Shown: positions 5,048-52,869 of the stretch, piece by piece | How the letters are laid out: every line of letters begins with the position of its first letter | How positions within the stretch are numbered: the first letter of the stretch is position 1 | From: Nevskia sp. | GTDB lineage: Bacteria; Pseudomonadota; Gammaproteobacteria; Nevskiales; Nevskiaceae | Direction: 5' to 3' | NCBI GenBank assembly: GCA_021732745.1 | Contig: JAKFUK010000003.1 | Span: 124,001 to 188,000, forward strand | DNA length: 64,000 nt | Translations under genes and position numbers: made by a program | Notes under the pieces: generated by a model | The model's input: only the letters and a program-made list of their open reading frames with translations | What the model was told of the DNA's origin: nothing | Database searches by the model: none

Positions 5048-7186
5048 GGCTCCCGGCCAGACCACGTCCAGCGTGCCCGGCAGCCGTACGAGCCCGCGCT
5101 GCTTCAAGAAGTCTTCGTTGCGCAGGGCCGCTGCGCCATCCAGCGCTGCGCGCAGCGCCGGCCAGTGCTCGCGGGCCGCGCTGAGCAGGCTCGGCAGCAG
5201 ATTGTCGGCCGACAGGCCCAGCGCCTTCATTCGCTCCTCGGTGGACAGCGCGTTGAACGCCATCTGGCGGGCCACCTGTCCGCCGTCGGCGAAATCGGCA
5301 GCACGAATGATCGACTGTATCCACATGTGGCCCTTCTGGTTCGGGCGAAAGCGGCCGGTCTTGCGCGATGCGATCTGCTCGCCATAGCGCGGATGCTCCG
5401 GCGAGGTCGGAACGCCCGCCTCCTCGGCTTCCCGAGGCACGGCCTTGTGGTCGCGGTGGGTCTTCAGTTCGACGCGCAACACGGCAATTTTATTGATCAG
5501 TTCGCGCAATTTCGGCAACGCCTTGACCGCCTGCGCTTTTCTCGTCTGCTCTTGGTTATCCAATGTCGGCTTGAGCCTGCCGGCCGCCTCGAACTCGGCG
5601 AAGGACATCGGCGGCGAGCTGCCATCGAAGGCTGCGATCAAAGCCTTGATCTCGCTTTCGATCGCTGCGGAACGCTCGGCTTGCGCCTGATCGGCACCAG
5701 CCTGGACGCTGGCCGCCGCCACCTTCACCGGCTTGCCGTCCGCCCCTTTGGACAGCGCCTTCGCCACGTCCGTCTCCACCGGCTTGCGCGTGGCGTTCGC
5801 TGCGGTCTGGTCGTTGCCGAGTCGCTGCATCTTCGGAAGATCGGCCTCCAGCGTGGTCGGCGGCATCTCGCGAATGAATTTCTCGGTGCGCACCGAACCG
5901 CCGCCGATGCTGCCGGCATTGCCGGACACGCCGTACAAGGTGCTCACCATGTCCCCGGGTTCGACGGTAGCGCCGCCTTCGCGCTTTTCATGGACCACGG
6001 TCAACACATGGCCGCTGACCGGCGAGCCATTCATCAGCGCCTGGGTGATGACATCGCCGGACTTCAGTTCGTAGTCCGCGTAAGCCGCCCGGCCGAACAC
6101 CTGACGCTCGCGGCCCAGCCAGCCGCCGGCAAAGGCATTGGTGATGAAGTGAGCCGCTTGCACGGTGACTTCCTGCATCAGCGCTTCGCTGGCAATCTTG
6201 CGCTCGACGCGCGACTCGACTTCTTCATCCGACAAGCTCGGCGAGGCCTTGCGCACAATGTTGCGCACCGCAATCCGGTAGTCCTTGTCCTTGCCTTTGC
6301 TCTGTTTCTCGAGCCGCCCGCTGGCAATGCGCAGGTACTCCGCCGGTGTCAGCGCCGGCTTGCCGGTGGCGAAGCGCAGGCCGTGGCGCAGCAGGCCGAG
6401 CACCACGGCGTTGTAGGTTGCCGGCCCACACCAGCCGTAGATGTTGGGGTCGCCAAGCAGCATCGCCTGGGCGTTGCCACCCTTGGCCTCGCTGGCACCG
6501 GTGCGCGCGTAGAGTTCGGCGACATTCGCCGGAACGTCCGGGCGTCCGGTCAGACCCTTATGCCAACTGCGCAGGAAGGCTTCGACAACCCGCTGGGCGA
6601 GCGCGCTGTCCTCGCTCCAGCCGGGATTGGTCTTGTCGTCGATGCGGACATGGCCCCGGCCTTTCTGCGCCGCCAGCTTGTCTTGCCAGGCCTCGACCCA
6701 ATCGGGAAAGCCGACCTTGCGCGCCTGGGTATCGCCGCCACCGTCATTGGACCGCTTGATGTCGACGGTCGGTGCCCAGTGCTGGTCGAGCCAGCGACGG
6801 GCCTGCTCCAGTTCCTTCGACTGGGTGAACACGGAATCCTGGACACCCGCTTCGACCTTGACAGCGTAAGCGCCCGCATCAGCATGAAGTCCTCCCGCAA
6901 CTGACTCGCGGACCTTGGGGTCGAGTGCTGGCAGTGCCGATGCCGCCTCGGGCAACGGGGGTGGGGGTGCTGCTGCGCCGGTAATCTGCGCCACCACCGC
7001 CGCATTGCCGCCCCGCCGTTGCAGGGCCAGCACTTCCTGCGGCGTCGCCTGGCCGCTGGCGACGCGGTTGGCGGTGCCGGGGCCGACGGTTGCCGTCGCT
7101 CGCGTTGGCGCGGGCGCAGGCCGGGCGGGCGCTGCCGGAGCAGCGAGGGGCTTGCGGACGGGCGGCGCAGCTTCGGCGGTGGGCAT
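5024..7186 (-). CDS. Protein of unknown function with LQRxxGNAAV motif and Cys/His protease-like core
   Basis: The 720-residue product matches no enzyme I can name. The first 85 residues are rich in Ala and Pro with no signal peptide. They contain LALQRRGGNAAVVAQI (residues 53-68), closely resembling the LQR-x-x-GN-A-A-V motif common in DUF4157-type and contractile-injection-system-associated proteins. The middle holds GWCGPATYNAVVLGLL with Cys253, as in papain-like and C39-like peptidases. His393 follows in SGHVLTVVHE, a plausible catalytic pair about 140 residues apart. The C-terminal third is charged, probably helical, and contains GEQIASRKTGRF and a Trp-rich segment. It is a single gene between an exporter and the carboxylase operon. 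The cargo/protease reading is inference; what can be seen is a large, signal-less protein with these two motifs. Confidence 0.8.
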   Translation of the reverse strand: MPTAEAAPPVRKPLAAPAAPARPAPAPTRATATVGPGTANRVASGQATPQEVLALQRRGGNAAVVAQITGAAAPPPPLPEAASALPALDPKVRESVAGGLHADAGAYAVKVEAGVQDSVFTQSKELEQARRWLDQHWAPTVDIKRSNDGGGDTQARKVGFPDWVEAWQDKLAAQKGRGHVRIDDKTNPGWSEDSALAQRVVEAFLRSWHKGLTGRPDVPANVAELYARTGASEAKGGNAQAMLLGDPNIYGWCGPATYNAVVLGLLRHGLRFATGKPALTPAEYLRIASGRLEKQSKGKDKDYRIAVRNIVRKASPSLSDEEVESRVERKIASEALMQEVTVQAAHFITNAFAGGWLGRERQVFGRAAYADYELKSGDVITQALMNGSPVSGHVLTVVHEKREGGATVEPGDMVSTLYGVSGNAGSIGGGSVRTEKFIREMPPTTLEADLPKMQRLGNDQTAANATRKPVETDVAKALSKGADGKPVKVAAASVQAGADQAQAERSAAIESEIKALIAAFDGSSPPMSFAEFEAAGRLKPTLDNQEQTRKAQAVKALPKLRELINKIAVLRVELKTHRDHKAVPREAEEAGVPTSPEHPRYGEQIASRKTGRFRPNQKGHMWIQSIIRAADFADGGQVARQMAFNALSTEERMKALGLSADNLLPSLLSAAREHWPALRAALDGAAALRNEDFLKQRGLVRLPGTLDVVWPGALSVIEGR

Positions 7187-45929: not shown

Positions 45930-47765
45930 ATGTGCGGAATCGTCGGCGCCGTCGCGCCCCGTGATGTCACCCCCCTGCTGGTCGACGGCCTGCGCCGCCT
46001 CGAATACCGCGGTTACGATTCCGCCGGTGTCGCCCTGCTGACCGACAGCGGCGCGCTCGATCGCCGACGCGCCCAGGGCAAGGTGCAGCAGCTTGCCAAC
46101 GACATCGCCGCCCGCCCGATCAGCGGCACGCGCGGCATCTCGCACACGCGCTGGGCCACGCACGGTGTGCCCAGCGAGCGCAACGCCCATCCGCATATCT
46201 CCGGCAACGCCGTGGCCTTGGTCCACAACGGCATCATCGAGAATCACGATGAACTGCGCGACGAACTGCGCGCCAAGGGCTACCCGTTTTCCAGCGAAAC
46301 CGACACCGAAGTCGTCGCCCATCTGATCGCTGATGAACTGTCACGCAGCGGCTCGCTGATGACCGCGGTACAGGCCGCGATCAAGCGCCTGCACGGGGCC
46401 TACGCCATCGTCGTGATCTCGCCGCTCGATCCGGACTGCATCGTCGCCGCCCGCGTCGGCTGCCCGGTGGTGGTCGGCTACGGCCGTGGGGAAAACTACA
46501 TCGCTTCCGATGTGCAAGCGCTGCTGCCGGTGACCAAATCCTTCAGCTTCCTCGAAGAAGGCGACGTCGCCGAAGTGCGCGAAACCGGCGTGGTGATCGT
46601 CGACAGCACGGGGGCCGTGGTTGTGCGCGCGGTGCGTGAATCGAGCCTGTCCGCCGATGCTGTGGAGCGCGGCGACTACGCGCACTACATGCTCAAGGAA
46701 ATCCACGAGCAGGCCCGCGCCGTGGCCGACACCCTGGCCGAGCGGATCACCGGCAAGCGGGTGCTGACCGCCGCGCTCGGGCCGCTGGCGGAAGCCCTAT
46801 TGCCGAAGGTGCGCCAAGTCCACATCGTGGCCTGCGGCACCAGCTATCACGCCGGCCTGATCGCCCGCTATTACATCGAGCAGGGTGCCGAACTGCCGTG
46901 TACGGTCGAAGTCGCCAGCGAATACCGCTACCGCAAGCCGGTGGTGCCGAAGGACACGCTGTTCCTGGCCATCTCGCAAAGTGGCGAAACCGCCGACACC
47001 CTGGCCGCCCTGCGCGAAGCAAAAAAGCTCGGCTATCTGGCCACGGCGGCGATCTGCAACGTGCCGGAGTCCTCGCTGGTCCGCGAAGCCAATCTGGTGC
47101 TGATGACCCGCGCCGGCCCGGAAATCGGCGTCGCCTCGACCAAGGCCTTCACCACCCAGCTTGCCGCGCTCGGCATCCTCGGTGTGGCGCTGGCTCGCCA
47201 CAACGGCATGAGCGCGGCCGTGGAAGCGCAGTACGTGCGCCAGATCGCCCATGTGCCGGAAATGATCGAGCGGACGCTCAAGCTGGAGCCGCAGATCAAG
47301 GCGCTGGCCCGACACTTCGCCGACAAGCGCCACGCGCTGTTCCTCGGTCGCGGCCCGACCTGGCCAGTGGCGCTGGAAGGCGCACTCAAGCTCAAGGAAA
47401 TCTCCTACATCCACGCCGAAGCCTACCCGGCCGGTGAACTCAAGCACGGGCCGCTGGCGCTGGTCGACGAAGACATGCCGGTGATCGCCATCGCACCGAA
47501 CAATGCGCTGCTCGAAAAGCTCAAATCCAATCTCGAAGAAGTCCGCGCCCGCGGCGGCAAGCTCTACGTATTCGCCGACCCGGAATCCGGCTTCACCGCC
47601 AGCGACGGCATCGAAGTGATCACCATGCCCGAGCACATCACCCCGCTGCAGGCCCCGATCATCTACACCCTGCCGCTGCAACTGCTCGCCTATCACGTCG
47701 CCCTGCTGCGCGGCACCGATGTCGATCAGCCAAGGAATCTGGCCAAGAGCGTGACGGTGGAGTGA
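45930..47765 (+). CDS. glmS: Glutamine-fructose-6-phosphate aminotransferase (isomerising)
   Basis: GlmS makes glucosamine 6-phosphate from fructose 6-phosphate and glutamine, the first step to UDP-GlcNAc. The 611-residue protein has Cys2 of MCGIVGAVA as glutaminase nucleophile. The glutaminase domain (about 1-240) includes GISHTRWATHG. Two SIS domains follow, with CGTSYHAGLIARYYIE and SQSGETADTLAALREAK in the first and LGRGPTWPVALEGALKLKEISYIHAEAYPAGELKHGP in the second. It ends PRNLAKSVTVE as usual. No glmS ribozyme was seen upstream. Confidence 0.97.
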   Translation: MCGIVGAVAPRDVTPLLVDGLRRLEYRGYDSAGVALLTDSGALDRRRAQGKVQQLANDIAARPISGTRGISHTRWATHGVPSERNAHPHISGNAVALVHNGIIENHDELRDELRAKGYPFSSETDTEVVAHLIADELSRSGSLMTAVQAAIKRLHGAYAIVVISPLDPDCIVAARVGCPVVVGYGRGENYIASDVQALLPVTKSFSFLEEGDVAEVRETGVVIVDSTGAVVVRAVRESSLSADAVERGDYAHYMLKEIHEQARAVADTLAERITGKRVLTAALGPLAEALLPKVRQVHIVACGTSYHAGLIARYYIEQGAELPCTVEVASEYRYRKPVVPKDTLFLAISQSGETADTLAALREAKKLGYLATAAICNVPESSLVREANLVLMTRAGPEIGVASTKAFTTQLAALGILGVALARHNGMSAAVEAQYVRQIAHVPEMIERTLKLEPQIKALARHFADKRHALFLGRGPTWPVALEGALKLKEISYIHAEAYPAGELKHGPLALVDEDMPVIAIAPNNALLEKLKSNLEEVRARGGKLYVFADPESGFTASDGIEVITMPEHITPLQAPIIYTLPLQLLAYHVALLRGTDVDQPRNLAKSVTVE

Positions 47766-47811
47766 GGGTGAATGGTGGGCGCTGGTGTTCTGCCGTCGGA
47801 AGAAAATAGGG

Positions 47812-47835
47812 AATTAGTAAGCTGTCACCGTAATT
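47812..47835. repeat. Left boundary inverted repeat of the 48-51 kb island
   Basis: A 24-bp sequence starting AATTAGTAAGCTGTCACC and ending GTAATT matches the reverse complement of 50868-50891 at 23 of 24 positions (one C/G difference). It lies 47 bp after the glmS stop. G+C falls just here. It is preceded by GG, which also occurs in the second right-hand copy. Confidence 0.85.
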
Positions 47836-47984
47836 CCGCGTAATTCCGGTTGTGATGAGATTCCCTCGGATGATCGGCGGTCGCAGGTACTGGCAATCCA
47901 AGCCAACGAAATATGAAGATTGAATGTCCGCCGGAACCGTACAGCTCATAAACCTGTGACGCGCGGCGAGCCTCGGCTTCGTCG

Positions 47985-48758
47985 TCAATCCGTTACCGTC
48001 GGGATCTTGTAGCTCCCTCTCAGCATTGCTGCAGTGGCCCGTGGCGGATCGAACTCCCAGTGCCATGGCTCACCATTTACCGTGCGAACGAAACCAAGTG
48101 CGGGAGCGTGTCGTTTAAGCCAGTCGTACACGTCGTTGCCATCCCCACCCGCAACATTGATATCAAATGCGATCCCGTTCTGATGTTTGGAGGTCCCCGG
48201 AGGAGCCGCCTTGTTAAATCCGGGAATTTTCCTCTTGTAACCGTCGTACAGATACTTCTGCTCAGGATAAGAGCGGAATCCGCTATTGATCGCCACCACA
48301 ATCTCATCAGACTTCGCCAAATTCACCATATCCAAGTAAGGCTTGACGGTATCAGCCGAAAGACGTTCAATTTCAAGCCGCGCGTCCACGATTTCTATCA
48401 AATCGATCTGCCCAAGATACTTCGACTCCGACCAAGCGGCGTGTGGGCCAAACTGGCCACTGCCCAGGGCAGGTTTGAGTCGATTGAGCGTTTCGTTGAC
48501 GAACTTCCCTTCGAGATTGGTAGTTGACGTCCAGCCCAGCAGTAATCCGTTAGCACTTACTGCGCGCCCGAACAACGAGGCCTTGTTAGCGCCGCTCGGC
48601 ACGATACGAACGTCATCGATACCCACCAATGTACCTTTGGGGATAGTGCGGAACGATCCGCCCATCATGTCAAAAGCCATTAAGTTCGCTGCCTGTCGAA
48701 TTCGCGCGTTCGGATCAGCAACAGTAAAGCTTTTGTTCAGATAACTTTGCTCGAACAT
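47985..48758 (-). CDS. M15 family (VanY-type) D-Ala-D-Ala carboxypeptidase/endopeptidase
   Basis: This predicted zinc peptidase cleaves peptidoglycan stem peptides. The 257-residue protein has SGFRSYPEQKYLY (about 159-171) and the zinc site SKHQNGIAFDIN with His192 and Asp199. The EPWHWEF motif carries catalytic Glu230 and His233. The N-terminal 100 residues (TIPKGTLVGIDDV... LLLGWTSTTNLEGKF) look like an SH3b-like targeting domain. It has no signal peptide, unlike housekeeping VanY proteins, which suggests export by a dedicated secretion system or lysis. Base composition is less G+C-rich than flanking genes. It lies next to a lysozyme-like gene. Confidence 0.9.
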   Translation of the reverse strand: MFEQSYLNKSFTVADPNARIRQAANLMAFDMMGGSFRTIPKGTLVGIDDVRIVPSGANKASLFGRAVSANGLLLGWTSTTNLEGKFVNETLNRLKPALGSGQFGPHAAWSESKYLGQIDLIEIVDARLEIERLSADTVKPYLDMVNLAKSDEIVVAINSGFRSYPEQKYLYDGYKRKIPGFNKAAPPGTSKHQNGIAFDINVAGGDGNDVYDWLKRHAPALGFVRTVNGEPWHWEFDPPRATAAMLRGSYKIPTVTD

Positions 48759-49107
48759 GCCCGCCCCTGAGTGCGCCGATTACTCACCAAGCGTTGCATG
48801 ACTCACGAGGTCGTGACCGTCACTCGAAGCAAAAGCTGCTCCGAAATGTGACGCAGGTCAAAATTGCTCCCCGTAAAGGGGATGTGGTAGAGCGTCTACG
48901 CCGGTTAGCAGCGCTTGCTAGGTATCTGTCGTGTTCCATCATATCGCTGTAACCCTGCAACATCTTGATGCGCAACCCGACGTGCCGGCTGATGCAAGCG
49001 TTCAATACTGAAACGACCTCCTTGATGGTCTTGCGCAGCCAGCACTATGAGAAAAGCGGCACATTCCTCAAAAGTCGTACAAATTATCTCAGGTCACGAT
49101 GCTTGAT
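48759..49107. other. Gene-free stretch inside the island
   Basis: These 349 bp separate the M15 peptidase from the lysozyme-like gene on the same strand. I see no supported gene; a minus-strand 61-codon frame (48820-49005) has no good start signal or recognised similarity. The region is lower in G+C, and could contain the peptidase promoter or a decayed gene. Confidence 0.5.
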
Positions 49108-49914
49108 CTAGCGCGGGTCGCCCGGCAACCTCTGTCCGGTGACGCGTAGATACGCTTCTGATGTGCGGTTGCCGGGGATGCCATCGACCTTGACGAAGGT
49201 ACCGGGGAAGGTGTTTAGCCAGACCTGTAGATCGATCGCGCGCTGCACGTCCTCAGGCTTCTTGGATTTGATGTTCGAGAACGCAACTAGGAGTGGCTTG
49301 GAACCAGTCTTGGGCGTAGGTTCGTCCTTAAACTCAATGTCGCCGCTCTCGCCCATGCGTCGAAGCAGAACGGCCGCGCCGCATTGCTCGGAGACTGCCG
49401 TCTCGGACCACAGGCCATCCTCGACGTACTTTCCCGAAGTGTAGTGCTCCGAGAAGCTCCAAACGTAAGGTGACAGGACATGCGGGTGATAATTCCGGTA
49501 GCCCCAGCCGTTGTAACGCTCGAGCTGATAAAGCGTCCCAGCCAGAGACCAGTCTGTATTCGAATCGAGCCCCTTGATTGCCAGGGCGTCGGCGGCGCTG
49601 AAGTCCCATGCGAATGGGGGCGAGCCGGTCTTCGGCCTGCCTGCCGGGACATTCTTCGTACGCTGACTTAGCGAGTCACCATTATGCAGATGTGTCTTGA
49701 AGTTGAGACTGCTTTCGAGGTTGTGGACCGCAGCAATGAAGTGCCATGGCACGCCTGATGTGGCCGACGCCTGTTCGTAGATCGCCCTGTAGCTGTTGAC
49801 CTTTTTCAGTACCTTCTCTACAGCGGCCGCACGACTTGGCCGGATCCTGCAGGTGTTGAAGAGCATTTCGTATTGAGCGCGCAAAGCCGGCGTCAGGTTT
49901 ACAGCTTTCGCCAT
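49108..49914 (-). CDS. Lysozyme-like peptidoglycan hydrolase with C-terminal peptidoglycan-binding domain
   Basis: The 268-residue protein resembles a lysozyme/chitosanase-like family found with peptidoglycan-binding tails in phage and cyanobacterial proteins. The core has WHFIAAVHNLESSLNFKTHL with likely catalytic Glu67, HNGDSLSQRTKNVPAGRPKTG, FSAADALAIKG and YNGWGYRN... SPYVWSFSEHYTSGK. The C-terminal 50 residues (DLQVWLNTFPGTFVKVDGIPGNRTSEAYLRVTG, spanning about 228-260) are a PG_binding_1-like repeat. No signal peptide is visible. It lies between a signal-less M15 peptidase and a divergent secreted protein. Confidence 0.87.
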   Translation of the reverse strand: MAKAVNLTPALRAQYEMLFNTCRIRPSRAAAVEKVLKKVNSYRAIYEQASATSGVPWHFIAAVHNLESSLNFKTHLHNGDSLSQRTKNVPAGRPKTGSPPFAWDFSAADALAIKGLDSNTDWSLAGTLYQLERYNGWGYRNYHPHVLSPYVWSFSEHYTSGKYVEDGLWSETAVSEQCGAAVLLRRMGESGDIEFKDEPTPKTGSKPLLVAFSNIKSKKPEDVQRAIDLQVWLNTFPGTFVKVDGIPGNRTSEAYLRVTGQRLPGDPR

Positions 49915-50065
49915 GTCGATTCTCCCTGGATTGGAAAGCCGCGAGGTCGGTGAGTGCCACTGATAATAAAGCTAGCACGGAGCCGCTTTGGGCGAAACTC
50001 GCTATGTCTGGATGCAGTACGGGTCTTGGTCAATAATCGAAACTAACACAGCAGGAGAGAAAACC

Positions 50066-50854
50066 TTGTCGATGCTTCGCGTAAATCTTGTACGAAGGGT
50101 CATTCTTTTTGGTGCCGCTCTAGCTAGCGGAGTCGTCTACGCAGATGCCGCGGACGTATTTGTCGACACCGAGTTTGCCGCGCGCTGGGATCTCGCTGTC
50201 AATCCCGGCAAGGATGCGGCTTGGCTGCAGGCCAAGCTGTTCCCGAAGCAGCCGGTTGAAGTGGGGCTTGCTGCAAAGGAAGTGAGCACCGAGGTATTCG
50301 CGATTCGTTATTTCGACTGGAACAGTCCTGCCCCTGGCGATTCGCCGTTTCGCGAGATCGTACGCGAACGCCAGAAGACGAAGGGCAGCAAGGTCACCTA
50401 TGAGCTGATGTACAAGCAGCGCGGTAGGGACTCGTTTGAAATTGCGACGAATGCTTGTCGACTGGAAACGGTCGATGGAAAAACTCCAGAAGGGAAGGCT
50501 GAAGTCGACGCTTCTCTGGCAACAGATGGCACTTTCACTCGCTCGTACTCGTATAGCTGCGATCTCAAGAAGGGCGCAAAGCCCTTTGTTCCGCCCACAG
50601 CACTTCAGGTGACCCCACAGCCGTGCTTTACGGCCGTTACCCGCCTAGAGGTCGAAACCAGCAGCGGTGCAAAGATCAAGATCGAGACGTGGAAGCTGCC
50701 AGGCGGCGATTTGATTGAGGTATCTTCGAGCGACCTCAACGAGGAGGCGTTCAAGGGCTCAGTCGGCAAGCTCATCACAGACGACAAGCTCCAGCTCTCG
50801 ACTGAGGGAAAGACACAAACCGCAGGGAAGTGTGCTGCGGAATTACGGAATTGA
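50066..50854 (+). CDS. Secreted (periplasmic) protein of unknown function
   Basis: The 262-residue product has a Sec signal peptide (MLRVNLVRRVILFGAALASG, likely cleavage after VYA-DA) and a beta-rich, charged mature part. Four cysteines (NACRLE, YSCDLK, QPCFTA, GKCAAE) could make two disulfides. I recognise no family. The start is TTG at 50066 with GGAG 8 nt upstream, or the ATG at 50072. It is divergent from the lysozyme-like gene across about 150 bp. A periplasmic protein beside two cell-wall hydrolases could be an inhibitor or immunity protein; this is inference. Confidence 0.8.
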   Translation: MSMLRVNLVRRVILFGAALASGVVYADAADVFVDTEFAARWDLAVNPGKDAAWLQAKLFPKQPVEVGLAAKEVSTEVFAIRYFDWNSPAPGDSPFREIVRERQKTKGSKVTYELMYKQRGRDSFEIATNACRLETVDGKTPEGKAEVDASLATDGTFTRSYSYSCDLKKGAKPFVPPTALQVTPQPCFTAVTRLEVETSSGAKIKIETWKLPGGDLIEVSSSDLNEEAFKGSVGKLITDDKLQLSTEGKTQTAGKCAAELRN

Positions 50855-50867
50855 ATTTGAATTGCTT

Positions 50868-50921
50868 AATTACGGTGACACCTTACTAATTATAATTCCG
50901 GTGACACCTTACCAATTCCCC
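50868..50921. repeat. Right boundary repeats of the 48-51 kb island (two copies)
   Basis: Two direct copies of a GGTGACACCTTAC-centred unit lie just after the 50854 stop. The first, 50868-50891, is the inverted partner of 47812-47835. The second, 50894-50921, begins AATTCCGGTGACACCTTACC and ends AATTCCCC. Such GTGTCACC/GGTGACAC units often accompany REP-type elements or their RAYT transposases, but no transposase gene is visible in the island. Confidence 0.8.
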
Positions 50922-50929
50922 AATTTCTA

Positions 50930-51532
50930 ATGGATCGGCTCTTGATGAGGCTGCTTTCGTCGGCTGGCCGCATCGCACCTTTTCGCGCTATCTCGCGCGG
51001 GAAGCTTCAACCGGTTTCCGCTGCCCTCGTCGCCCGGGGAAAGTAACCAGGGAAGGGCGCTCGGCATGCAGTCGACTCGCGGGAACTCCTCATTGCCCCC
51101 TGCCCGGCCGTGATGTTGGGCCAAGCTGGGGGTCAATCAGGACGACTCGCGCGATGGCGCGAAATATTCGACGCGGTGAGGTCAGTCGGGCAGGCGGCAC
51201 CGAGTTCGTCGGGATGCGCGGTGCAGCCGCTTTCCCAACCTACTCGGGCTTTTTCGTCGGCGCAGCGCAGGGCATGGCGGTGCTGTCGAAGGTGTCGTCC
51301 GATCCGGGCACCGTGCGCGACATTGCAAGGGTCAGCATAAGCACCTGGCCGGTCGCGACGGTCAATTGACCCCGCCCGTGACCACCTGCCGGGGAAGGTT
51401 CGCGGCCTGTGATCTTCGTGCGCAACAGGTTACTGGCCCGGTTCATGCACAAATAACGAGTCAGGAAGCGGTCGAACTGCTAGCCTTTCCCTACCCGCGT
51501 TGTTCCATCTGCCGCCGCGTGTCGGCCCGTTA
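50930..51532. other. Long gap without a supported gene
   Basis: About 600 bp between the island edge and the small lipoprotein hold no convincing gene. A 71-codon plus-strand frame (51154-51369) lacks a recognised family and a good ribosome binding site. GGGGTCAAT near 51127 and the perfect palindrome GGTCAATTGACC at 51360-51371 form a weak inverted pair. The stretch may be decayed sequence next to a mobile insertion. Confidence 0.4.
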
Positions 51533-51544
51533 AGGAGTTTTCGA

Positions 51545-51772
51545 GTGAAGATCCAAGGCTTGAGTCTGTGCTGTGCCGTCCTGCTGATGATGACTGCGTG
51601 CAAGGGCAAGGAAGAAGCAGCCCCGGCAGCCGCCCCGGTTGCTGCCGAAGTGCCGGCCGCTCCGGTTGAAGCCGCTCCGGTCGAAGCTGCGCCGGTCGAA
51701 GCCGCCCCGGCTGCTGCCGAAGCCGCTCCGGAAGAGAAGAAGGAAGGCGAAGCCGCCGCTCCGCAGCAGTAA
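51545..51772 (+). CDS. Small Ala/Pro-rich lipoprotein
   Basis: This 75-residue predicted lipoprotein starts at a GTG with AAGGAG 7 nt upstream, an excellent ribosome binding site. The signal VKIQGLSLCCAVLLMMTAC ends with lipobox MTAC; the mature chain is KGKEEAAP followed by repeated APVEA/AAPVE units and an acidic Lys-rich end. Such short Ala-Pro lipoproteins may act as envelope spacers. The function is unknown. It stands alone between the gene-poor stretch and glk. Confidence 0.75.
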   Translation: MKIQGLSLCCAVLLMMTACKGKEEAAPAAAPVAAEVPAAPVEAAPVEAAPVEAAPAAAEAAPEEKKEGEAAAPQQ

Positions 51773-51900
51773 AAGCGTTACGACTGCAGGATCTGCAGCT
51801 CGAAACCCGCCGATGATGCAGCTTTCGTCTGCGCCGCATCGGCGTCTCGGCGTCGCCCGGCCTTCCCGCCGGGTGACGCCGCTTTAGTTTCGCTTTCCCG

Positions 51901-52869
51901 GTGCCGCGTCTGCTCGCAGATGTGGGCGGCACCCATGCCCGTTTCGCGCTGCAATCGGCGGACGGGACGATCACCGCGCCGCAAGTGCTGGCCACTGCGG
52001 ACTACCCGGACCCTGTCGCCGCGATCCGCAGCTATCTGGCCGCTGCTGGCGTAGCCGGTGTGCGCAACGCCGCCATCGCCATTGCCAATCCGGTGGATGG
52101 CGACGCCATCCGCATGACCAATCACCCCTGGGCGTTTTCGATCGAAGCCACGCGCCTCGCACTCGGCTTCGACACGCTGCTGGTGCTCAACGATTTCACC
52201 GCGCTGGCGCTGGCGCTGCCCTTGCTCGATGCCGGCGAACTGCTGGCCATCGGCGGCGGCGAACGCCGCTCGAACGCGACCATCGGCCTGCTCGGCCCCG
52301 GCACCGGGCTCGGCGTATCGGCGCTGGTGCGCTGCGGCGAGCGCTGGCAAGCCCTGTCCAGCGAAGGGGGGCACGCCAGCTTTGCGGCAGTCGACGACCG
52401 CGAAGCCGCGATTCTCGCGATCGTTCGCCGCAGCTATCCGCATGTGTCCTGCGAACGGCTGATATCCGGCCCGGGGCTTACGCTGATCCACGACGCGCTG
52501 CGCGTGCATCACCGCCTGCCGGCAGTGGCGATCACGCCGGTTGCGCTTTCGGCACGCGCGCAGTCCGGCGAATGCGCGGTCTGTGCAGAGGCGACGCAGG
52601 TGTTCAGCGGCATGCTCGGCAGTTTCGCCGGCAGCCTGGCTTTGATTCTCGGCAGCTTCGGCGGTGTTTATCTCGGCGGTGGCGTCATCGCCGGGCTGGG
52701 GAATGCCTTCGATCGCGGCTTTTTCCGCAGCCGGTTCGAGGCCAAGGGCCGCTTCGCCGGCTATCTCGCCGGTATCGCAACGGTGCAGATCGTCGCCGCG
52801 AATCCGGCGCTGCGCGGGGTTTCGGCGGCGCTCGCCGCGCATCTGGGCAGCCGCAGCCTAAGCAACTGA
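51901..52869 (+). CDS. glk: Glucokinase
   Basis: Glk phosphorylates glucose with ATP in the cytoplasm. The 322-residue proteobacterial-type enzyme starts at GTG with LLADVGGTHARFAL (phosphate-1 motif). It has VLNDFTALALALPLL with the catalytic Asp, IGLLGPGTGLGVSAL, SEGGHASFAAVDDRE, and LGSFGGVYLGGGVIAGL near the C-terminus. It is downstream of a small lipoprotein and followed by an alcohol dehydrogenase after 135 bp; no operon partner is obvious. Confidence 0.94.
   Translation: MPRLLADVGGTHARFALQSADGTITAPQVLATADYPDPVAAIRSYLAAAGVAGVRNAAIAIANPVDGDAIRMTNHPWAFSIEATRLALGFDTLLVLNDFTALALALPLLDAGELLAIGGGERRSNATIGLLGPGTGLGVSALVRCGERWQALSSEGGHASFAAVDDREAAILAIVRRSYPHVSCERLISGPGLTLIHDALRVHHRLPAVAITPVALSARAQSGECAVCAEATQVFSGMLGSFAGSLALILGSFGGVYLGGGVIAGLGNAFDRGFFRSRFEAKGRFAGYLAGIATVQIVAANPALRGVSAALAAHLGSRSLSN

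Follow-up and report, generated by a model that had tools for sequence, protein, structure and literature searches.

A low-G+C island with two signal-less wall-hydrolase-type proteins in Nevskia sp. and a dispersed border repeat that accompanies apparently acquired cargo

Introduction

Type VI secretion system (T6SS) effectors that carry two wall-targeting domains are already known (PMC12135965). Among mobile repeats, genes for transposases associated with repetitive extragenic palindromic sequences (RAYTs) are flanked by such sequences (REPs) or by unrelated terminal inverted repeats (TIRs), those with moderately abundant TIR families being called 'TIRtrons' (PMC3733652). In Pseudomonas, mobile elements and atypical regions are reported to be devoid of REPs (PMC3390384). 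There is as yet no good account of how effector/immunity genes move from genome to genome when no dedicated transposon carries them. Here, we describe a 64,000-nucleotide stretch of Nevskia sp. DNA (the window; C3:124001-188000 of a 3.99-Mb genome in 6 contigs) that contains a small island with two wall-hydrolase-type proteins and a divergent, signal-bearing protein, and we describe the repeat family that borders it.

Results

The island interrupts a region of core-like genes (by eye), and the G+C content drops from about 0.65 in the flanks to about 0.55 inside it. Three open reading frames (ORFs) lie between 24-nt inverted repeats. The features are as follows.

47800..50950, no strand: low-G+C island between glmS and a small lipoprotein gene (gene names by eye), delimited by the composition profile
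47810..47837, minus strand: left border repeat, 1 mismatch to the 28-nt consensus, 5' end directed into the island
47985..48758, minus strand: M15/VanY-type peptidase, 257 aa, no signal (Pfam VanY, 4.2e-16)
49108..49914, minus strand: lysozyme-like protein, 268 aa, signal-less (alignments, structure model, viral-contig relatives)
50072..50854, plus strand: exported protein, 260 aa, hydrophobic N-terminus, four cysteines, mature isoelectric point (pI) 5.5; start at 50072 or at a TTG at 50066
50866..50893, plus strand: right border repeat, copy 1, 4 mismatches
50892..50919, plus strand: right border repeat, tandem copy 2, 4 mismatches, overlapping copy 1 by 2 nt
50894..51110, plus strand: longer repeated element with the border repeat at its start, extending outward; 69-82% identity over 104-258 nt at nine other repeat-bearing loci (blastn)

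This architecture agrees with a preliminary description of the same DNA, which had placed an M15 peptidase and a lysozyme-like protein side by side without signal peptides, opposite a secreted four-cysteine protein, within inverted repeats and in DNA less rich in G+C than its flanks. The difference extends to third codon positions, where the G+C content is 0.585, 0.706, and 0.621 in the three island genes and 0.80-0.87 in glmS, glk, and the next gene. In the genus relative G018, glmS, the lipoprotein gene, glk, and the following gene keep their order, and another gene replaces the island; among the four relatives read, glmS fell inside the stretch only in G018, where the replacing gene is ChaN-like and the lipoprotein gene so named by eye. 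Rfam gave no match within 47000-52000, no SOS box was found with two patterns, and no sigma-70-like promoter was found where shuffled sequences lead one to expect 1.4.

The border repeats are not private to the island. The border motif, allowing up to 3 mismatches, has 53 matches in the genome compared with 4 for a reversed control. We picked 18 regions around such hits and searched these and the window, and nothing else, with the 28-nt consensus at up to 7 mismatches, which yielded 49 copies. Because the regions were chosen by repeat hits, the figures that follow describe copies rather than all islands. The G+C content falls below 0.55 in 500 nt on the 5' side of 31 of the 49 copies, on the 3' side of 10, and on either side of 35. 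In twenty hand-placed 20-kb control stretches, set at roughly even steps over contigs 1-5 with the copy-rich contig 6 omitted, only 3 of 800 windows were below 0.55 and no repeat copy was present; four of the twenty held short low-G+C runs without a repeat. The copies are also polar, the 5' side having the lower G+C content in 36 of 49 copies and in 21 of 29 thinned clusters (p = 6e-4). Because the conserved outward part of the repeat is itself G+C-rich, we repeated this comparison with the adjoining 250 nt excluded and obtained 36 of 49 copies and 20 of 29 clusters (p = 0.003). Low G+C content was present on either side in 18 of the 29 clusters. Alignment of ten right-hand copies (A5) revealed a sharp left edge at GGAATTAC and outward conservation of about 100 nt in all copies, longer in some. 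In most tabulated islands, only one of the two ends shows a clear repeat; that of the window has repeats at both ends, in tandem on the right. The repeat family marks low-G+C, apparently acquired cargo genome-wide, a result that was unexpected and is more novel than the island itself.

Of 17 relatives in the genus, 2 contain the motif (up to 1 mismatch), with 1 and 3 copies, compared with 29 in this genome. A single copy in relative G016 has no island. Relative G022 has one copy near a contig end, where it bounds a low-G+C stretch of two ORFs, and a tandem pair (L220:2128-3462) whose neighbors are an RHS-like fragment (by eye) and a low-G+C ORF; at this pair the low G+C content is on the 3' side, contrary to the polarity above. 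As a single strand, the 28-nt repeat is predicted to fold only weakly (z -1.62). A REPIN was considered and rejected, as the arms are 3 kb apart compared with the 60-70 bp pairs quoted for Pseudomonas (PMC3390384). A second dispersed repeat, G+C-rich and about 105 nt long (window 51145-51250; 77-83% identity in long matches), is present close to several border-repeat loci, and the sampled stretches contain it once.

A Y1 transposase ORF (Y1_Tnp, 2e-07; L013:5492-6199) lies between inverted copies of the repeat starting at 5475(+) and 6243(-), an arrangement that links the family to RAYTs, and other copies have a second Y1 ORF nearby. The repeat consensus has no GTAG tag. Both copies flanking the first ORF turn their 3' sides toward the transposase, which puts the low-G+C cargo outside the ends of the transposase unit. 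Such a layout speaks against a simple transposon with two ends; the options that remain are one-ended capture, a preference in insertion, or hot spots used in common.

The cargo proteins that we scanned were chosen by eye. At repeat-bearing loci they include Tae4/Tai4, PAAR, SUKH, an RHS protein with M15_3, DUF6932, LprI, a SEC-C protein, and several without a family; a transglutaminase lies in a stretch of normal G+C content. A reverse transcriptase (PADLOC RT_VI, 7.1e-72) and a helix-turn-helix-like ORF (by eye) occupy L024:1686-2968 (contig C6), ending at three tandem border repeats. Small ORFs alike around a common stretch, WPVTxDGWQ (by eye), are present in two islands (L012:5087-5509 and L023:12613-13581), twice in tandem by a PAAR gene, and perhaps represent an orphan immunity family.

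Both island hydrolases are assigned from homology or modeling. The VanY domain of the peptidase scores 59.4 bits against a curated Pfam cut-off of 25, so the protein belongs to the M15/VanY family, with activity predicted from sequence; a PDB sequence search matches its catalytic part to carboxypeptidase structures. For residues 1-128, SH3-like by eye only, no relative was found: among the 369 class genomes searched, only this genome itself matched. The M15 domain is similar to endolysins of 70 phage records, nearly all with actinobacterial hosts. No relative of the M15 protein was found in viral contigs with the patterns used or in 80 viral lysozyme loci. Hydropathy scans, the only test applied, detected no export signal in either hydrolase, and their computed pIs are 9.2 and 8.6.

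In the lysozyme-like protein, E67, N135, G136, and G138 are invariant across the lysozyme-domain alignments (A2, A3). Its structure model (mean predicted local distance difference test [pLDDT] score, 85.7) appears lysozyme/lytic-transglycosylase-like in a comparison with PDB structures (VIA list), which leaves room for families outside that list; by sequence, neither the protein nor its profile matched the PDB. A WHIX-type identity was rejected by eye, as the WHxxxH motif (PMC12135965) is not matched by the WH-(5)-H found here. Relatives of the domain are encoded in 163 viral stretches, placing it in an endolysin family. One Bradyrhizobium phage carries a relative, and among 40 aligned members, one or two each match PHROG endolysin families. 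Only 4 of 79 viral ORFs with the domain have an N-terminal hydrophobic stretch; a missing signal is therefore normal for this family. A linkage of the viral relatives to holins was dropped: a loose, uncontrolled count gave 68 of 79, and a controlled one gave 22 of 40 compared with 7 of 20 (p = 0.18). Nor is the domain confined to phage lysis modules, the distribution that the preliminary description had named as contrary to its proposal, as it also occurs in six plasmid neighborhoods without any gene annotated as phage.

Fusion partners of the lysozyme domain in its relatives are M15_3, Endonuclease_NS together with Trypsin, or a sub-threshold CHAP domain, so that a combination with a peptide cutter recurs. 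On Rhizobiales plasmids, the domain is joined to Trypsin and Endonuclease_NS, M15_3, or PG_binding_1 (L041:5751-8558; L043:5434-6987; L045:5116-6564). In Sinorhizobium and Rhizobium, plasmid copies lie amid genes annotated as caspase or CHAT, and one of them is joined to a trypsin domain. These Rhizobiales loci are a possible uncharacterized conflict system.

The exported protein is far rarer. It was matched in 1 of 58 family genomes, and a two-row profile was matched in 1 of 369 class genomes, in each case by itself. The sole relative found is from Variovorax (four plasmid records, 27.7% identity, plus one contig, with strain WDL1 represented twice). A Pfam scan of nine neighbors at one Variovorax locus returned only Endonuclease_NS, about 4 kb off. 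Viral contigs held no relative with the patterns used, nor did the 80 viral lysozyme loci. Against the PDB, the profile gave four weak rows only (E 0.22 or more) and the single sequence none. Its structure model (pLDDT 48.6) had no Foldseek match at E <= 0.001, and weak triphosphate-tunnel-type rows at ranks 3-5 were not trusted.

The genome has T6SS genes, including TssB (5.5e-55) and Hcp (2.1e-33) by family search and a VgrG-type protein by Pfam. In the T6SS cluster (L030), Pfam identifies the VgrG-type protein, an N-acetylmuramidase (1.3e-53), and an SLT-domain protein, the other core genes being recognized by eye. The ORF that follows the muramidase gene on the same strand overlaps it and is, by eye, signal-bearing. 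An ORF that by eye encodes a phosphatidylinositol-specific phospholipase C-type phosphodiesterase (L030:8750-9916, contig C1) lies beside this cluster in a G+C dip. A co-directional Tae4/Tai4 pair (3.5e-21, 3.5e-22) lies in a repeat-bearing island (L025:4144-5223, contig C6), flanked by two directly oriented border repeats with 6 and 2 mismatches. Another repeat-bearing island, at L010, has a co-directional PG_binding/M74-like protein (M74 23.9 bits, cut-off 25) and a lipoprotein-like ORF. In a third, an RHS protein that ends in an M15_3 domain at its C-terminus is followed co-directionally by a signal-like 191-aa ORF without a family (L013:6403-10822, contig C1), with a repeat and a Y1 transposase ORF adjoining.

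Discussion

An island of foreign composition, with repeat copies on both sides, thus encodes two signal-less peptidoglycan-hydrolase-type proteins and a divergent signal-bearing protein. Our leading, still tentative interpretation is that it is an acquired wall-attack cassette, maybe T6SS cargo, with the exported protein as candidate inhibitor. The island would be one of the genome's interchangeable antibacterial cassettes, and both hydrolases would be harmless in the producer's cytoplasm. The resident T6SS would carry them as cargo into a neighbor's periplasm, where the lysozyme-like enzyme would cut glycan strands and the M15 enzyme peptide stems, jointly. In the producer's periplasm, the acidic, cysteine-bearing exported protein could neutralize at least one basic hydrolase injected by a sister cell, and its divergent placement would allow immunity to be made independently of the toxins.

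The mobile effector/immunity cassette with a secreted inhibitor, as first proposed, is therefore borne out only in part. The signal-less hydrolases, the T6SS genes, the absence of the island from G018, and Tae4 and Tai4 in a sister island make this reading plausible, although we would not put it at even odds; orientation, the lack of a delivery gene, and the lack of co-conservation weaken it. Also in its favor are the PAAR, SUKH, and RHS-M15_3 genes of other repeat-bearing islands, the muramidase gene with its signal-bearing neighbor in the T6SS cluster, the recurrent fusion of the lysozyme domain to a peptide cutter, the basic pIs of the hydrolases beside the acidic one of the mature exported protein, and the excess of low G+C content on the 5' side of the repeat copies. 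Several results count against it. A Pfam scan of the three island proteins, with the neighbors judged by eye, showed neither VgrG nor PAAR, Hcp, or an adaptor, and a TssB match is present in 2 of 10 genomes with the lysozyme domain and in none of the other eight, so the domain is not bound to T6SS. The T6SS cluster itself has 6 low-G+C windows of 40 and no border repeat copy. The four effector-like pairs elsewhere in the genome (muramidase, Tae4/Tai4, L010, and RHS-M15_3; signals by eye) are co-directional, whereas the exported protein of the island is divergent. The predicted co-occurrence of the secreted protein with the hydrolases did not emerge in the stretches read, where relatives are few and two lie near contig ends: two annotated Variovorax neighborhoods have no gene named as a wall hydrolase, tblastn of both island hydrolases gave no match at the Variovorax neighborhood, and four full-length bacterial lysozyme relatives (G123, G359, G663, and G789) lack the exported partner in the stretches read, the genes of G123 and G359 being near a contig end. 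Finally, a 349-nt gap separates the hydrolase genes and the G+C content differs among the three genes (0.526, 0.580, and 0.559), so the three may not have arrived together.

Unlinked T6SS cargo effectors exist. The absence of an adjacent delivery gene is therefore not fatal to a T6SS role.

Two other explanations are close rivals of the cassette. In the first, which is somewhat unlikely, these are phage-derived lysis genes: the lysozyme, perhaps with the M15 peptidase, would be a captured endolysin, inert or used for self-lysis, and the exported protein would be unrelated or a guard against leakage. The many viral relatives of the signal-less lysozyme family and the likeness of the M15 domain to phage endolysins are consistent with this origin. 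However, a crude scan of 34 ORFs of >=30 aa in the island found no holin-like small hydrophobic ORF, only the exported protein passing the hydrophobicity cut; the neighbors are core-like by eye, and no relatives of the exported and M15 proteins were found in viral contigs with the patterns used or in the 80 viral lysozyme loci.

The second, unlikely explanation is a hot-spot patchwork, in which a gap between core genes that is prone to insertion took up three functionally unlinked genes independently. The unrelated cargo at other repeat loci (reverse transcriptase, DUF6932, SEC-C, family-less ORFs) and the unequal G+C contents fit such a history, and in the stretches examined no two of the three proteins' relatives were seen together elsewhere. 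Coincidence would nevertheless be needed to bring two complementary wall hydrolases onto one strand beside a divergent exported protein. That cytosolic hydrolases lyse the producer after an inner-membrane breach, as cell suicide or defense, is very improbable: it recalls the caspase-, CHAT-, and trypsin-associated plasmid lysozyme domains, but those partners are not in the island and PADLOC matched none of its three proteins.

For the repeats, we consider it improbable, though worth stating, that the RAYT-type (HUH, single-strand) transposase and the repeats form a genome-wide system that captures and shuffles antibacterial and defense cassettes. Each copy would serve as an end, with foreign low-G+C cargo (effectors, immunity genes, RHS tips, reverse transcriptases) being acquired or relocated next to it, and the wall-hydrolase island would be a case with two such ends; this too we hold only as a speculative proposal. 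A limited search of the open-license literature found no report of RAYT-linked repeats at effector cassettes. The sharp cargo-side edge, the resident Y1 ORF, and accepted T6SS effector/immunity cargo offer a concrete, testable vehicle for the spread of such genes, and the cassette itself provides a pair of candidate wall hydrolases and a candidate inhibitor of which almost nothing is known.

Compared with T6SS peptidoglycan effector-immunity pairs (Tae4/Tai4, muramidases, and the WHIX double-blade of PMC12135965), the locus is alike in its signal-less wall hydrolases, its exported partner, the T6SS genes of the genome, and Tae4/Tai4 in a sister island; it differs in having two separate hydrolases, a divergent partner that is not co-conserved, and no spike gene alongside. 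With phage endolysins it shares a signal-less lysozyme domain that is widespread in viral contigs, but no lysis module was found in the island and no viral relative of the exported partner was found. The repeat family resembles the REP/TIR 'TIRtrons' (PMC3733652) in its Y1 ORF with inverted flanking copies, its dispersed multi-copy repeat, and its tandem and clustered copies; lacking the GTAG tag of REPs, it is nearer the TIR type described there. The REPs of Pseudomonas are reported to be missing from such regions (PMC3390384), whereas low-G+C cargo is where most copies of the border repeat are located.

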